A stretch of 64,000 nucleotides of DNA from Lachnospiraceae bacterium (GTDB lineage Bacteria; Bacillota; Clostridia; Lachnospirales; Lachnospiraceae). Below, piece after piece: positions 41,283-49,121 of the stretch. A program made the position numbers and the translations under genes. The stretch lies in the NCBI GenBank assembly GCA_029053015.1, contig JAIDHX010000036.1:186001-250000 (forward strand), read 5' to 3'. The notes below the pieces were generated by a model. It was given only the letters and a program-made list of their open reading frames with translations, did not search any database and had not been told where the DNA came from. Position 1 is the stretch's first letter; the number at the start of each line of letters is the position of its first letter.

Positions 41283-41402
41283 GATACAATCCAATGATAA
41301 GTGTTGTCAGAACTGCCGATTGTATGATATACTGAAACATATATTTTGTATATGTCACGTGTTTCTTATAAAAAACGCTGGCAGGGAAGGTTGAGGAAGC
41401 GT

Positions 41403-43358
41403 ATGGCAAAAGAAAAATCGTCGTTGGTTTTTACGAACGACAAATGTATTGGATGTAATAAATGTATCAGCGTGTGCAGCTGCACGGGGGCATGTGTATC
41501 CCATGAGGTAGACGGGGCAAACAGGATTGATGTGGATGGGAATAGATGTGTTGCCTGCGGAGCCTGCTTTGATGTATGCGAGCATGGTGCCAGAGAGTAT
41601 AGTGACGATACGGAGCGTTTTTTTGAGGATTTGAAGCGCGGCGAGAAAATCTCGATTCTGATTGCGCCCGCCTTTAAAGCAAATTATCCGCAGGACTATG
41701 AGCGGGTGCTCGGCGGGTTGAAACAGTTGGGTGTAAACCGTATGATAAGCGTATCCTTTGGCGCCGATATCACCACATGGGGATACTTGAATTATGTACA
41801 GAAATATAATTTCCTGGGCGGCATCTCACAGCCTTGTCCGGCGGTGGTCGGCTATATCGAGCGCAACTTGCCGGAGCTTCTGCCGAAGCTGTTTCCTGTA
41901 CAGAGTCCCATGATGTGTGCGGCTATCTATGCGAGAAAGGAAATGGGCGTTACAGACAAGCTTGCGTTTATCAGTCCCTGTATCGCGAAAAAGATGGAAA
42001 TTGACGACCCCAACAACAAAGGGGTGGTTACGTACAATGTGACTTTCAACCACTTGATGAAGTATGTAAAGGAAAATCAGGTTTACGGAGCACTCCAGTC
42101 CGATGAAATTGAATATGGATTAGGTTCCATCTATCCCATGCCGGGCGGTCTCAAGGAGAATGTTTACTGGTTCTTGGGAGAGAGTGTGTTTATCCGCCAG
42201 ATAGAAGGCGAAAAGCACATGTATCATTATCTGGAGCACAATAAAAATAAGATTGCGGCAAATAAAACCAAGTATCTCTTTATCGATGCGTTGAACTGTT
42301 CTTCCGGCTGTATTTACGGAACGGGCTGTGATCCTGAGAAATCCGGCAATGACGACGTGTTGGAAGCGCTTCTGGAAATCAGGGAGTCTTCCAAAAAAGC
42401 AGGTTCAAAAAGCGCATGGGCGAAGAAACTTTCACCTGAAAAGCGCCTGAAAAAGCTGAACAGCCAGTTTAAAAACCTGAAGTTGGAGGATTATCTGCGC
42501 AGCTATACGGACCGTTCTGCTGAGTGTGCTTACAAGCATCCGACGGAAGCAGAGCGTGATGCCATCTTTAAGGAGATGAACAAAAATACGACGGCAGAGC
42601 GTCATATCAACTGCTCCTGCTGTGGCTATGACTCTTGTGAGCAGATGGCGGACGCTATTTTCAATGGCTTCAATCAAAAGACAAATTGTATTTATTACAT
42701 AAAGAAAGAAGTGGAAGAGCAGAAGGCGACGGCGGAGGAACTGGCTGACCAGTTGACGGCAGACAAGCAGCTCATTCAGGAACAGAAGGAATTGATACTC
42801 CAGACGCTTAAGGAAATCAACTCGGAATTTGATACTTTATATCGGTCGGTTGACGATATGGCAAAGGGAAATGAAAACAATGCGTCGGACAGCGCTGAGA
42901 TTTCGGCGGATATCAAGGATGTGACAGCATTCTGTGAATCCCTGTCGCGTTCTATGGACGAAATCAGCGATTTCCTGCGGGAACTTTCACAAAATAATGA
43001 TGAGGTTGTCAGCATTGCTTCGCAGACGAATCTGCTTGCGCTCAACGCTAATATTGAAGCGGCGCGCGCAGGTGAGGCGGGCAGAGGATTTGCCGTTGTA
43101 GCGGATGAAATCAACAAACTTGCCAGCGAATCAAGGGAAACTGCGACCCGCAGCAATTCCAGCCAGGACAAAATCATGAACTCAGTCAGCAGTATTATTG
43201 CGGATACGCGAAAGCTTTTGGATACCGTTGACGGTGTCAACGGAAGGACCCAGACGCTTGCGGCTGCGGCACAGGAGATTTCCGCTTCTGTCAGCATGGT
43301 TCTGGGTACGGCAAATAAAATCAGGGAGAAGTTGAAGGTGCTTGGAACGCAATACTAA
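41403..43358 (+). CDS. Fusion: ferredoxin + [FeFe]-hydrogenase-like H-domain + 4Fe-4S domain + methyl-accepting signalling domain
   Basis: [13 protein letters not shown] / [77 protein letters not shown]. Confidence 0.92.
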
Positions 43359-43414
43359 AAAGAGAAAAGCGCCTGCGGCTTCCGGTGGTAAAACGCTTTA
43401 TAATGGAGGATACC

Positions 43415-44149
43415 ATGCATTATAATTGTCTGCTTGTGGACGATGAAACGGAACTGGCCGCAATGACATGTGAATATTTTAATATGTTTGACACCTCCTG
43501 CGCATTTGTGACGAATGTGCAGGAGTGTCTTGCTTTTTTAGAGCAGAATACGGTGGATGTTCTGCTGCTGGATATCAATTTATCTGAAGAAAGCGGTTTT
43601 ACCCTCTGCAAACGCCTGCGGGAGCAGACCGATATGCCGATACTGTTTATCAGCGCAAGGCAGAGTGATGACGATGTGCTGATTGCACTCAACATAGGCG
43701 GCGACGATTACATTAAGAAGCCGTATTCACTGAGCGTACTGCTTGCCAAGGTGAAAGTGATCTTAAATCGGATGCAGCGCGGCAGGGAAGCGGAGCAGGC
43801 TGCGGCTGCGCAAAGAGATGCAGAGACAGCGCATGTGCGGAGCGGCGCAGACGAGGGCGGCGCGGGGCTGTATCTGTCCGAAGAGACGCTTTCTGCTGTG
43901 TTGCGCGGCAAAAGGGTGCAGCTTAAGGCGAAGGAGTTTGCACTGCTCAAATGCCTTTATGACAACCGGAACAAAATCGTGACGAAAGAAAACCTGTTTC
44001 TGGTAGTATGGGGTGCCGAGTGCTATGGCGACGGCACACTCAATGTGCATATCCGTAAGCTTCGGGAAAAGCTGGAGGAAAATCCGAGTGAGCCTAAATT
44101 GATTCAGACGGTGTGGGGCGTCGGGTACATGCTTTCTGTCACTGACTGA
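43415..44149 (+). CDS. OmpR/PhoB-family response regulator
   Basis: LLVDDETELAAM, DVLLLDINLSEESG, C-terminal winged helix GDGTLNVHIRKLREKL. Confidence 0.94.
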   Translation: MHYNCLLVDDETELAAMTCEYFNMFDTSCAFVTNVQECLAFLEQNTVDVLLLDINLSEESGFTLCKRLREQTDMPILFISARQSDDDVLIALNIGGDDYIKKPYSLSVLLAKVKVILNRMQRGREAEQAAAAQRDAETAHVRSGADEGGAGLYLSEETLSAVLRGKRVQLKAKEFALLKCLYDNRNKIVTKENLFLVVWGAECYGDGTLNVHIRKLREKLEENPSEPKLIQTVWGVGYMLSVTD

Positions 44150-44207
44150 CGGCAAAAAGAGGTTCAGCGATTGGTTATCAGTTTGAAAATGGACGAGGGA
44201 TATTAAG

Positions 44208-45443
44208 TTGAAAATCAAATATCTTATCTTAGGTCATGCTGCCATGACAGTATGTTTTCTGTTTCTGCTTTTGTCAGTCTTTTCCAAATTCCGATATGCG
44301 GCATTGGATACTTTATATTATAACGAAAAGCTGCAAATGCTGACCGAGTGTGTAGGAGAACAGGGGAGAAGCAGTGCGGAGGAAGCATTTGGCTGCAGGC
44401 TTCTCTACTTTACCGATATGGATTACAAGGAACAGATGAATATGCTGCTTCAGTCGGGGGCAGTTATACTGGACTATTATGAGAACGGGGAAATCGTGGG
44501 AAAAGCGGCATGGAACGATAGGGCTGCTTCATGGGAGCAGGAGCAAAAGGCGCTTCTTTCAACGAGCATACTTTTTCTTTTTCTGTTTTTTGCTGCGGGC
44601 TGTCTGTTGATTTTTGTGGTATGGTACCGGTATGTCCGTCCTTTTATACGCCTTAAGGCATTTGCGGCACAGATTGCAAAGGGCAATCTGGACTTTCCGC
44701 TGCCGATGGAGAAGCACAATGTTTTTGGCGCGTTTACGGAGAGCTTTGACATTATGCGGGAGGAGTTAAAGCGCGCCAGAGAGAGTGAGTACCGTGCCAA
44801 TAAGAGCAAGAAGGAACTGACGGCGGGGTTGTCCCACGATATGAAGACGCCGCTCGCCACGATAAAGGCAGCGTGCGAGGTGATACAGGTCAAGGAAAAG
44901 AATCCGGACACCTTAGAAAAGGTAGCAGTTATTGCCGCAAAGGCAGAGATGATGGAAAAACTGACGGACAATATGCTGAAAGCCACGCTTGAGGAGCTTG
45001 AGGTGCTGCGGGTGGAACCGTCCGAGGAAAGCTCGCCCGTCATTGTGGATATGATTGCCGAACTGCGCTATTATGGGGAGATAAGGCTGTGCAATGAAAT
45101 GCCGGAGTGCCTTGTCCTTATTGATAAGATGAGACTCTCCCAGGTGATAGATAATATTGTCAGCAATGCGTTTAAATATGCAGAAGGCGCTGTGACAGTT
45201 TCTTTTAAAGAGGCTGACGGCGGACTGTATATCCTGATTCGAGACAGAGGAAAAGGCGTTCCGGAGGAAGAACTTGCCCTGCTGTGCGAAAAATTTTACC
45301 GTGGCAGCAACGCACAGGGACAGGAGGGCGCAGGACTTGGTCTGTATCTCGCCAAAATGTTTATGGAGCGCATGGGCGGCGGTATGGAGTGCGGCAATGA
45401 CGAGGGATTTTTTGTGAGGCTGTATGTGAAAAAGGCGGGGTGA
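44208..45443 (+). CDS. Sensor histidine kinase
   Basis: TM, HAMP-like region, TAGLSHDMKTPLATIKA, HATPase GAGLGLYLAKMFME. Confidence 0.94.
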   Translation: MKIKYLILGHAAMTVCFLFLLLSVFSKFRYAALDTLYYNEKLQMLTECVGEQGRSSAEEAFGCRLLYFTDMDYKEQMNMLLQSGAVILDYYENGEIVGKAAWNDRAASWEQEQKALLSTSILFLFLFFAAGCLLIFVVWYRYVRPFIRLKAFAAQIAKGNLDFPLPMEKHNVFGAFTESFDIMREELKRARESEYRANKSKKELTAGLSHDMKTPLATIKAACEVIQVKEKNPDTLEKVAVIAAKAEMMEKLTDNMLKATLEELEVLRVEPSEESSPVIVDMIAELRYYGEIRLCNEMPECLVLIDKMRLSQVIDNIVSNAFKYAEGAVTVSFKEADGGLYILIRDRGKGVPEEELALLCEKFYRGSNAQGQEGAGLGLYLAKMFMERMGGGMECGNDEGFFVRLYVKKAG

Positions 45444-45463
45444 TGGAAGAGTAAAATGCCTTA

Positions 45464-45492
45464 TTGACTTCATGATGTACCACTGTTATAAT
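45464..45492 (+). promoter_or_regulatory. SigA promoter driving a candidate antisense antitoxin RNA
   Basis: TTGACT (45464-45469) - 17 nt - TATAAT (45487-45492). Confidence 0.75.
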
Positions 45493-45498
45493 ATGCTT

Positions 45499-45597
45499 AA
45501 CAAGAGAGCCGAAAGCTGGTGTACACCTAGCCGCCGGCAGAGTATATTGCTAAAGGATAAGCGCCTTACTTTGTCAGAGCAGGGGCGCTTATTTTTT
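45499..45597 (+). ncRNA. Candidate antitoxin RNA, convergent with and overlapping the toxin 3' end
   Basis: Promoter at 45464-45492; ends at terminator AAGCGCC(45559-45565)...GGCGCTT(45584-45590)ATTTTTT. Confidence 0.65.
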
Positions 45598-45678
45598 GCG
45601 TTTTGTAATAGTTACAACAAGAGTTATAACAGCGCAAAGCATAATTACAAAAGTGAATAGATCGCTATATGTAACCAT
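45589..45678 (-). CDS. Putative holin-like/type I toxin peptide, 29 aa: MVTYSDLFTFVIMLCAVITLVVTITKRKK
   Basis: Manual minus-strand translation; RBS-like AAGGGAG then CTGGTGCCA before ATG; single TM with basic tail, typical of the Hol_Tox/TxpA-type family. Confidence 0.85.
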   Translation of the reverse strand: MVTYSDLFTFVIMLCAVITLVVTITKRKK

Positions 45679-45919
45679 TGGCACCAGCTCCCTTCCGTTA
45701 ATGTCCGGCAACTGGCATATCGCCCCTTTCGGCTCCCTAATTAGACACACTATTTATTTGGTTTGGTTGGATTGTATCAATCAATGTTATAGATATATGC
45801 TGCATAAAAGCAACACAAGATAATACAGAATAAATAAAGAACACATATATGTTATCACAGGTCTGCAAAAAAGGAAAGTGGTTTTTCTGAACATTTTATC
45901 AAAATATTAATTTGTACAT

Positions 45920-45984
45920 TTAAGAATCAGTTAAGAAATAGACAGGAATCAGGTTAAGACTTTTCACACCTTGCATTTTATAAT
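45920..45984 (+). promoter_or_regulatory. Response-regulator operator with direct repeats plus -10 for the ABC genes
   Basis: TTAAGA at 45920, 45931, 45954; AATCAG(G)TTAAGA at 45925-45936 and 45947-45959; TATAAT at 45979-45984. Confidence 0.6.
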
Positions 45985-46005
45985 GAGGATGTCTGGAGGG
46001 ATATA

Positions 46006-46764
46006 ATGATGGAAACAATACTTACGGTCAAAGACCTATGCAAAACATTTTCAAATGGAAGTGTGCAGCAGCACGTGCTGAAAAACCTGAATCTGACGGT
46101 GGAAAAGGGGGAGTTTGCGGTTATTATGGGAAACTCCGGCTCCGGCAAGAGCACACTTTTGTATGCATTGTCGGGAATGGACCGGCCTACGCTGGGAAGC
46201 ATTTCCTATCAGGGAGAAGAAATTTCAAAGTACGCAAATGACAAACTTGCAATTTTCAGAAGGAAGCATTGTGGCTTTGTATTTCAGCAGAATTATTTAA
46301 ACGATACCATGAGCATTATGGATAATGTGCTGGTGAGCGGATTTTTGTCAGGACGCGGCAGGAAGGAGGTTGCAGAAAAGGCGAAGGAGCTGCTTTTGGA
46401 AGTGGGGCTTTCGGAAGATGCTTTTTCCAAGTTTCCGACGCAGCTTTCCGGCGGCGAGCAGCAGCGGGCGGCAATGGTGCGCGGCATCATCAACTCGCCG
46501 GAGATACTTTTTGCCGATGAGCCGACCGGCGCACTGAATTCGCAGAACACGAAGCGTATTCTGGATATTTTAACAAAAATTCATGAAAACGGGCAGACAA
46601 TTGTGATGGTGACGCACGATATGAAGGCGGCAAGGCGCGGAAGCAGGGTGTTGTATTTAAAGGATGGTGTGATTACGGGAGAACTGCGGCTTGGCGATTA
46701 CAAAAGCGGCGATAAGGAAAGGCATGACAGGCTGAAAAAGTTTCTTGAGGAGATGGGGTGGTAA
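46006..46764 (+). CDS. ABC transporter ATP-binding protein (BceA-like)
   Basis: [42 protein letters not shown]. Confidence 0.94.
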   Translation: MMETILTVKDLCKTFSNGSVQQHVLKNLNLTVEKGEFAVIMGNSGSGKSTLLYALSGMDRPTLGSISYQGEEISKYANDKLAIFRRKHCGFVFQQNYLNDTMSIMDNVLVSGFLSGRGRKEVAEKAKELLLEVGLSEDAFSKFPTQLSGGEQQRAAMVRGIINSPEILFADEPTGALNSQNTKRILDILTKIHENGQTIVMVTHDMKAARRGSRVLYLKDGVITGELRLGDYKSGDKERHDRLKKFLEEMGW

Positions 46765-49121
46765 GTATGGGTTCCTTGTGGTTTATTGCGAAAAATAATA
46801 TGAAAAAAAGGAAGGGCGATGCCATTGTACTGCTTTTTCTGATGGCACTTGCGGCGCTGCTTCTGTACGTGAGCATATCGGTGCTGACGGGAACGGAAAA
46901 GGTAATCCATGAGGCATATGAAGCCATGCATACGCCCGACTGGTTTTATATGACAAATATAGACTGTGAAGAACGCCTGACTGCGCTGGTTGCGGAGTTG
47001 GAAGAGGTGGAGGAGTTTGAAACGGGGGACAGCCTCTACGTGATGGGCGGAAAATACAGGAAGGATTTGGAAACGGAAGCGGATGAATATGCTTTTCTTT
47101 TGGGCACTATGGAGGAGGAAAGAACAATTGGGAAAATACCGGTTGTAGAAAATCCTTCCTACGACGACATTTTGCTGCCCTATTATTTAAAATACAGCGA
47201 GGGTTATGAAGTCGGAGATTTTATCTATTTGCAGTTATACGAAAAGGAATACCGATTTTGTGTGGCCGGTTTTGTGAACGACCCGTTATTTGCAAATCCG
47301 CTCAATATCAGTGTCTATAGCTGCTATATCACGGATGCGTGCATGAAGGATATATTGAAGGAAGAGCCTGCGCTTGCCGGATGCAGGCAGCGCCAATATA
47401 GGGCGCGGCTTGTGGAAAACAGTGATTTATGGGAATTTGAGAAAGAGGTATCCATGATTCTGACAAAGGAAATTCCGGAGCTTGCAGATGGTATGAATCT
47501 GGGGATGAACTGGACTGCCATGAGTCACGGCGTATCCATTATGTCCAATATCGGCATGGGTATTATTCTGCTGTTTTCCATACTTCTGCTGGTGGTGGCG
47601 GTGATTATTATAAGGTTTTCCGTGCAAAACTTTGTGGAGTTAAATCTGAAAAATATCGGAATACTGAAAGCGTCGGGCTACACATCCCGGCAGCTAAGGG
47701 CGGCATTGCTTTTGGAAATGGCAGCGCTTGCCTTTTTCGGAAGTATTCTCGGACTTTTGGCAGGTTTTTTTTGCGGCCGTTTTATCGGCAGTCTGGAGGG
47801 TATGATGCTGGGGCTTAACTGGAAGTTTACTTTTGCGCCGAAGGCAGCAGGTATCTCGCTGCTGGCGGTGTCGGGCGCTGTCAGTTTAACCGCGCTTTTA
47901 TCAGGCAGGGTATACAGAAAAGTCACGGTGCTTGACGCGCTGCGCGGCGGCGTTCACACGCACAATTTTAAGAAAAATTATTTCCCGCTCCATGCCTGCA
48001 GACTGCCGCAAAGCATTGCCCTTGCAGGAAAGAATATATTGGGGGAAAAACGAAAAAATTTGTCCGTGCTCTGTATTGTCGCGCTACAGACGCTTGTGGC
48101 GATAATCGGCTTTGGTCTGTATCAGAATTTTGCGGTGAGTCCGGAAAAGCTTATGAAGATGAGCGGTACGGAGGTGGGGGATGTCTATGTGACAGGGGAA
48201 AATTTGGACGAGGCGGGCAGCCGGATAGAGGGCTGGGAGGAAGCAGGAAAGGTGATTTATTACAATAATTGCCCCGTCCAGCTCTATAGCGGTGATGCGC
48301 AAATCGGTCTGACCTGTGATATTTACAGAACACCGCAGGATATCAATAATGAGTGGCTGGTCGAGGGGCGGCTTCCTGTGTATGACAATGAAATTGTGCT
48401 GACAGCGATAGTGGCTGAGCAGCTTTCTGTCGGCGTGGGCGATGTGATTTATGTGGAGGGAGGCGGTGAGCGCAAGGACTACATAATTTCGGGAGTGGAC
48501 CAGAAATTCAACAATGCCGGAATCAAGGCAATGATGACGTGGGAAGGCGCAGAGCGCCTGAATGGAGAAACGGCGGCAGTGGTTCTGAATCTGTATCTGA
48601 AGGAGGGTGTGTCTTTTTCTGATATACAGGAAAAATTGTCAGAAGAATTTCCGGATTTGGATGTTTCCGAAGGAGCAAAGATGATAGAAGTTTCCATGGC
48701 TACGATTCGGTCTGCCATGCAGCTTATCTGTCTTATCTTTGTGGCAATCACGGTTGTGGTGGTCATTATGGTAGAGCTTCTTTTGGTGAAATCCAAAATT
48801 ACAAAGGAGCGGAAGAACTATGGTATCAATAAGGCGCTTGGGTATACGACTGCGCAGCTTATCGGGCATACGCTGCTTGTCAATATGCCGGTAATATTTG
48901 CAGGGTCTGTTTTGGGAATTGTGCTGGGAAGAGGAATGATAAACCCGCTCACGTCTGCATTTCTCTCCGGATTTGGCATCAAAGAATGTGAGATGACCAT
49001 TGCTCCGGTATGGTTTTTGATTACGGTTGCCGGAATTGTGGCAGTCGCAGCAATTTCCTGTTTTATCAGTGCAGTAAGGATACGTCGGATAGAGCCGGTG
49101 AAGATGCTTTCGGAGGATTAA
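46758..49121 (+). CDS. FtsX-like ABC permease (BceB-like)
   Basis: 787 aa, duplicated FtsX regions (LKNIGILKASGYTSRQL, RKNYGINKALGYTTAQL). Confidence 0.92.
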   Translation: MVSMGSLWFIAKNNMKKRKGDAIVLLFLMALAALLLYVSISVLTGTEKVIHEAYEAMHTPDWFYMTNIDCEERLTALVAELEEVEEFETGDSLYVMGGKYRKDLETEADEYAFLLGTMEEERTIGKIPVVENPSYDDILLPYYLKYSEGYEVGDFIYLQLYEKEYRFCVAGFVNDPLFANPLNISVYSCYITDACMKDILKEEPALAGCRQRQYRARLVENSDLWEFEKEVSMILTKEIPELADGMNLGMNWTAMSHGVSIMSNIGMGIILLFSILLLVVAVIIIRFSVQNFVELNLKNIGILKASGYTSRQLRAALLLEMAALAFFGSILGLLAGFFCGRFIGSLEGMMLGLNWKFTFAPKAAGISLLAVSGAVSLTALLSGRVYRKVTVLDALRGGVHTHNFKKNYFPLHACRLPQSIALAGKNILGEKRKNLSVLCIVALQTLVAIIGFGLYQNFAVSPEKLMKMSGTEVGDVYVTGENLDEAGSRIEGWEEAGKVIYYNNCPVQLYSGDAQIGLTCDIYRTPQDINNEWLVEGRLPVYDNEIVLTAIVAEQLSVGVGDVIYVEGGGERKDYIISGVDQKFNNAGIKAMMTWEGAERLNGETAAVVLNLYLKEGVSFSDIQEKLSEEFPDLDVSEGAKMIEVSMATIRSAMQLICLIFVAITVVVVIMVELLLVKSKITKERKNYGINKALGYTTAQLIGHTLLVNMPVIFAGSVLGIVLGRGMINPLTSAFLSGFGIKECEMTIAPVWFLITVAGIVAVAAISCFISAVRIRRIEPVKMLSED

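Follow-up and report, generated by a model that had tools for sequence, protein, structure and literature searches.

The 64,000-nucleotide (nt) stretch of Lachnospiraceae DNA analyzed here (contig JAIDHX010000036.1, positions 186,001 to 250,000; hereafter, the window) very probably carries a chromosomal type I toxin-antitoxin cassette, in which a putative toxin gene for a 29-amino-acid (aa) membrane peptide on the minus strand is opposed by a convergent antisense RNA from the plus strand. This reading, proposed by an initial annotation of the sequence, is supported by comparison of more than 100 homologous cassettes. In these, the antisense RNA is convergent and ends at a terminator common to both RNAs, the antitoxin promoter is strong and that of the toxin weak, and purifying selection acts on a conserved toxin frame. 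In addition, the comparison indicates that the two predicted RNAs of a cassette carry matched 5' leaders that evolve in concert. The features of the window copy are as follows.

45464-45492, plus strand: antitoxin promoter, consisting of TTGACT (45464-45469), a 17-bp spacer, and TATAAT (45487-45492); 11 of 12 positions match the consensus
45487-45513, plus strand: left arm of the inverted leader repeat, reaching from the -10 box to approximately +15 in the antitoxin RNA and matched to the right arm
45499-45597, plus strand: predicted antitoxin RNA of about 99 nt with putative ends, supported by a covariance model and covariation
45508-45538, plus strand: antitoxin 5' hairpin from the predicted fold, outer GCCG...CGGC and inner GCTGG/CTAGC; helix 2 is 100% paired, with compensatory changes
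45553-45597, both strands: central terminator hairpin common to both RNAs, containing the toxin stop codon; its tails are T6 toward the antitoxin and, in the window copy, a weak T tract toward the toxin
45678-45589, minus strand: toxin-like open reading frame (ORF) of 29 aa, MVTYSDLFTFVIMLCAVITLVVTITKRKK, with one transmembrane segment and a basic tail
45694-45688, minus strand: Shine-Dalgarno-like AAGGGAG ahead of the toxin ORF
45716-45683, minus strand: predicted toxin leader hairpin (GCCAGUU with AGCUGGU), overlapping the edge of AAGGGAG and supported by the fold and by compensatory pairs in the family
about 45742, minus strand: predicted toxin transcription start, part of the right-arm region
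45754-45729, minus strand: right arm of the inverted leader repeat, with a -10-like AATAGT (45754-45749)

Translation and rereading of the sequence confirmed the toxin ORF, its ribosome-binding motif, the plus-strand promoter, and the hairpin followed by six thymines (stem-loop at approximately 45553-45591, T6 at 45592-45597). The locus had been delimited as 45464-45720; its features lie in place, but both the toxin leader (to approximately 45742) and the right-hand repeat (to 45754) extend past its end. Plus-strand ORFs listed over the toxin gene had been called spurious, and they are indeed not conserved frames. An N-terminal extension of the toxin frame by 53 aa, also on the ORF list, was rejected because the family does not conserve it.

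Several properties set the 29-aa ORF apart. It is the only ORF in the 64 kb with 22 to 40 aa, one hydrophobic stretch, and a basic tail, and none occurred in 20 Markov-shuffled windows. Its hydrophobicity (Kyte-Doolittle 2.67 across 19 residues), small size, and TKRKK tail are those of a small hydrophobic type I toxin with a charged end. Across the family, the toxin frame has a ratio of nonsynonymous to synonymous polymorphism (pN/pS) of 0.27, whereas none of the remaining five frames falls below 0.43, and variation is highest at third codon positions; by this measure the ORF is under purifying selection. Furthermore, the window cassette and its orthologue in a sister species differ by no substitutions over 275 bp, compared with 14 over the neighboring 267 bp of that intergenic region. 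Similarity to Hol_Tox (PF16935), the protein family to which the initial annotation pointed, is present: family peptides resemble it in length, start motif, single transmembrane segment, and basic tail, the peptide of another cassette scored 33.6 bits, and 20 of 31 family peptides matched at E values up to 1. The window peptide is weakly similar to PepG1 (NF041589; 16 bits, below the equivalog cut-off of 70), as is the predicted toxin mRNA to BsrG (RF01412; 24.1 bits, E = 0.0011, below the gathering score of 55).

Evidence for the antitoxin comes from covariation. We built a covariance model (R1) from 49 family RNAs, including the window copy, which the model matches at 45499-45599 with 90.5 bits, a score to be read with that copy's place in the training set. 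The model has four helices with 96.1% of cells paired, and 19 of 23 base pairs show changes on both sides; double changes number 151, against 41.0 (standard deviation [sd], 7.7) in shuffles. When partners were slid by 1 to 3 columns, pairing fell to 40 to 49%. No Rfam family reached its gathering score in the window or across the cassettes of eight related loci. The terminator folds at -35.6 kcal/mol (z = -2.5), and an automatic terminator scan missed it because its loop exceeds 8 nt. Hairpin and T6 end the predicted RNA within the last codons of the toxin ORF. An antisense RNA over the toxin gene with a promoter of its own is thus indicated at the sequence level by promoter, covarying RNA, and terminator.

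The two sides of the cassette are asymmetric. Among 122 copies, the antitoxin -35 region is near consensus, with at least 5 of 6 matches in 101, and the spacer is 17 bp in 89 and 16 bp in 30; toxin-side -35 regions do not exceed shuffles. In the antitoxin direction, 106 of 110 cassettes have a strong T tract, and a weaker one, provided by a run of A, serves the toxin direction in 97. A hairpin in the toxin leader, beside the Shine-Dalgarno motif, is conserved with compensatory changes and also folds in the window copy. A toxin promoter upstream of the repeat was considered and rejected; strong candidates were found in 13 of 110 cassettes (2.9 expected), at no fixed position. On many toxin sides (e.g., loci L094 and L142), TTGACAA abuts TATAAT with a spacer of 1, an abnormal promoter spacing.

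The cassette is not confined to the window. A nucleotide search of 61 related genomes found it in ten, at several sites per genome and often in tandem; the genome of the window holds five (the window copy, two on contig C6, and two on C35). A pattern restricted to the -10 box of the antitoxin and its first transcribed bases matched at least 117 stretches in named genomes, nearly all of Lachnospiraceae, and 22 in viral contigs. With one mismatch allowed, it occurred in 27 of 138 genomes of the genus, where the reversed control pattern occurred in none, in 16 of 299 Lachnospiraceae genomes (that of the window among them), and in 0 of 299 other genomes across the phylum. The matches listed for named genomes, together with the viral contigs and the window, gave 135 full-length contexts; among these, 119 have a convergent Hol_Tox-like ORF at a fixed place, and the other 16 mostly reflect an altered toxin end, entry from the toxin side, deletion, or interruption. 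The covariance model matched 49 of 150 Lachnospiraceae genomes, with up to 8 copies each. From these matches we took 31 loci, of which 29 are from other genera; a convergent peptide is present in 22 of the 29, a test that is not wholly independent since some loci also match the pattern. The remaining two are weak additional matches from the genome of the window, and one of these has an ORF that is unrelated. Phage and plasmid records yielded neither a DNA nor a protein match.

Other observations concern individual loci. Insertion-sequence-like DNA interrupts four cassettes at or near the central terminator loop (L012/L025, L030/L032 [one genome], L060, and L047), and one of the four is the orthologue of the window copy. 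L001 (G000:C30:286916-287008; 49.7 bits) is another Hol_Tox locus of the same genome, unrelated to the cassettes, and is opposed by a convergent antisense leader of a distinct type. To the eye its two leaders resemble each other, but their local alignment is not significant. Adjoining the cassette of L023, positions 1848-2059 match the Rfam family SpF66_sRNA (48.2 bits) and contain an ORF for a different small membrane protein, MDILSSFFLSVLASVVAYYICKWLDGEE; this may be a further small toxin locus. Near the cassettes of L111, positions 1792-1860 match the Rfam skipping-rope RNA (42.2 bits).

Within each cassette, the 5' ends of the two predicted RNAs resemble each other. In 111 of 117 copies, the toxin side repeats the sequence from -10 to +15 of the antitoxin, inverted in the DNA, and in nearly all of these the repeat lies 46 to 54 nt from the start codon. 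Left and right sides of a cassette agree at position 26 in 95 of 110 cases (37.4 in shuffles; sd, 4.7) and at position 19 in 109 (60.4; sd, 4.5). Positions 6, 8, 21, and 24 also agree far above shuffles, position 27 shows no such agreement, and the 3' block of the leader is matched as well. The matching at positions 19 and 21 recurs in loci derived from the covariance model. In a tree computed from the interior of the cassettes, six positions had 59 same-branch changes on both sides, 57 of them to the same base, where about 8.5 same-branch coincidences were expected; recombination between cassettes could inflate this count. Tandem copies 300 bp apart have ends that differ between the copies yet are similar within each, which argues against a common trans-acting DNA-binding protein as the cause. 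Pairing in trans between the 5' half of the antitoxin and the toxin leader was rejected as a source of specificity, the advantage of cognate pairs being marginal (p = 0.035) or absent (p = 0.91). Our search of open-access text found no description of the shared leaders.

An argument can be made against the toxin-antitoxin reading on several counts. Against Hol_Tox, the peptide in the window reaches 16.7 bits, under the curated cut-off of 23.3. Its gene has no recognized promoter within 45700-46005 and a -10 sequence of AATAGT, where the orthologue has TATAGT, and its toxin-direction T tract is interrupted (ATCCTTTAG). With a poor T tract and such a -10 sequence, the window copy may be weakly expressed, and it could be a low-expressed or partly decayed member of the family. 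Finally, two loci (L112 and L125) from which the toxin ORF has been lost still keep the promoter and RNA of the antitoxin, which speaks for the reading, but the search, having begun from the antitoxin, was biased toward such cases.

It is also conceivable, albeit improbable, that the gene encodes a nontoxic small membrane protein and that the convergent antisense RNA tunes a membrane process, such as that of the neighboring sensor kinase or FtsX-type transporter, with no part in addiction or self-poisoning. The window copy, with a histidine kinase gene on one side and an ABC/FtsX transporter operon on the other, occupies a site common to three related genomes, which would suit such a role. Yet other cassettes stand in dissimilar flanks, in tandem, and on viral contigs, and the peptide is related to Hol_Tox. 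The genes around the cassette (43385-49121) encode a response regulator, the histidine kinase, an ABC ATPase, and an FtsX-type permease, and resemble operons for sensing and export of antibiotic peptides. The stretch 41346-43358 encodes an iron-only hydrogenase-like domain joined to a chemotaxis-receptor signaling domain, possibly a sensory hydrogenase.

As a toxin-antitoxin system, the cassette would work as follows. The minus strand would yield a short mRNA, from about 45742 to 45553, for a single-pass membrane peptide that in excess would damage the cell's own membrane or arrest growth. The near-consensus plus-strand promoter would produce a shorter RNA (about 99 nt) more strongly, converging on the same terminator hairpin. 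Because they converge on one terminator, the RNAs should pair through its loops, which are perfectly complementary; the loops would kiss and a duplex of about 45 nt would then form over the end of the toxin frame, marking the toxin mRNA to be cut, presumably by RNase III. The toxin leader hairpin may add a second layer of control by restricting ribosome access. We infer the steps of 3'-end pairing, RNase III cleavage, and Shine-Dalgarno masking by analogy with txpA/RatA (PMC3531473) and bsrG/SR4 (PMC6562991), both of which act by 3'-end pairing and RNase III, with Shine-Dalgarno masking in bsrG.

The likeness to txpA/RatA, which the initial annotation had drawn, is apt as a mode of working, but the RNA family differs and the overlap is far shorter. 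In the skin element of Bacillus subtilis, these convergent RNAs pair at their 3' ends over approximately 120 nt (PMC3531473), and the toxin is small and hydrophobic with a charged C terminus (PMC6563280). Our cassette likewise has convergent RNAs predicted to overlap at their 3' ends, through the common terminator at 45553-45597; here, however, the overlap is about 45 nt within a bidirectional terminator, and the antitoxin RNA has a 5' hairpin of its own and matches no Rfam family. The bsrG/SR4 pair combines terminator-loop contact with a toxin-leader hairpin that sequesters the Shine-Dalgarno sequence (PMC6562991). Loop contact is predicted here as well, alongside a hairpin on the Shine-Dalgarno side of the leader and the weak covariance-model similarity of the toxin mRNA, although that score falls short of the gathering score of RF01412 and the overlap is shorter. 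In Fst/RNAII of the par locus, convergent RNAs share a terminator and have repeats near both 5' ends, as in our cassette; there, direct repeats give complementary RNAs, whereas here inverted repeats place the same sequence in both. CD2517.1-RCd8 and related modules of Clostridioides difficile are also convergent, overlapping pairs in a clostridial host, but with toxins of 34 to 59 aa, which lack similarity to B. subtilis toxins, and a long complementary region (PMC6563280), compared with 29 aa and about 45 nt here.

Candidate causes of the concerted leaders are template-switch homogenization, 5'-3' RNA closure or strand exchange, and the ends of a mobile element. Matched leaders may be a mutational by-product without regulatory role, left as the two inverted arms were homogenized by gene conversion or by template switching of DNA polymerase, an account to which we give a little less than an even chance. 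Template switching is known to homogenize the arms of inverted repeats (PMC8604942), and positions 6 and 8, which precede the predicted transcription starts, are among those that changed in step. The arms are nevertheless about 200 bp apart, beyond the short spacers described (PMC8604942), systematic left-right differences at positions 13 to 16 persist inside the homogenized tract, and the 3' block is matched too. The cassette is unlikely to be a miniature mobile element with the arms as terminal inverted repeats. Many dispersed copies at unrelated places, tandem copies, and several copies per genome fit that picture, but the conserved, functional antitoxin -35 box lies outside the arms, and no empty site was found: a search with the window copy gave only three orthologous sites, all occupied.

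Matching might alternatively reflect RNA function, an account slightly less probable than template switching. Since the leaders are inverted repeats, a read-through toxin mRNA could close its 5' end on its 3' end, or the antitoxin could exchange strands with the toxin leader, and the arms would have to change together. The hok and AapA1 mRNAs close their 5' ends with their 3' ends. When the minus strand is folded to 45500, a long 5'-3' helix forms (z = -4.0; 0 of 200 shuffles as good). On the other hand, the toxin mRNA should stop at the central hairpin in most family members, given their T tract, leader-leader duplexes are barely cognate specific in the window's family (p = 0.035 and 0.91), and matching upstream of the start sites is left unexplained.

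Loci outside the family speak for RNA function. We examined 28 nonredundant Hol_Tox loci, nearly all elsewhere in Bacillota, sought through the protein family only. The similarity of the toxin leader to the leader of its own antisense RNA averaged 25.7, against 16.5 (sd, 0.86) with those of other loci, and the observed mean was reached in 0 of 10,000 permutations; the direct-strand control was null (14.2 versus 14.4). This cognate matching is weaker than in the Lachnospiraceae cassette, and leader-leader duplexes are modestly cognate specific (p = 0.007). At many of the 28 loci, an inner hairpin closes in the antitoxin but is absent from the toxin leader, and the toxin instead makes a Shine-Dalgarno hairpin adjoining the shared 3' arm. 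It is possible, though short of probable, that throughout Bacillota the matched leaders of Hol_Tox type I loci are specific to each cassette and kept identical by function. They would then form an undescribed second element for recognition or self-closing, responsible for cognate specificity and for activation of the toxin mRNA, with the Lachnospiraceae cassette as its clearest example.

Our findings add an antisense RNA family unrecognized by Rfam, along with its putative toxin, to a major gut family, in a third of the genomes sampled. The cassette family is widespread in gut Lachnospiraceae and apparently undescribed. Such peptides are easily overlooked, falling below curated cut-offs despite an unmistakable genomic context. 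More generally, the concerted leaders raise the question of how type I pairs hold their cognate specificity among several near-identical copies in one genome.
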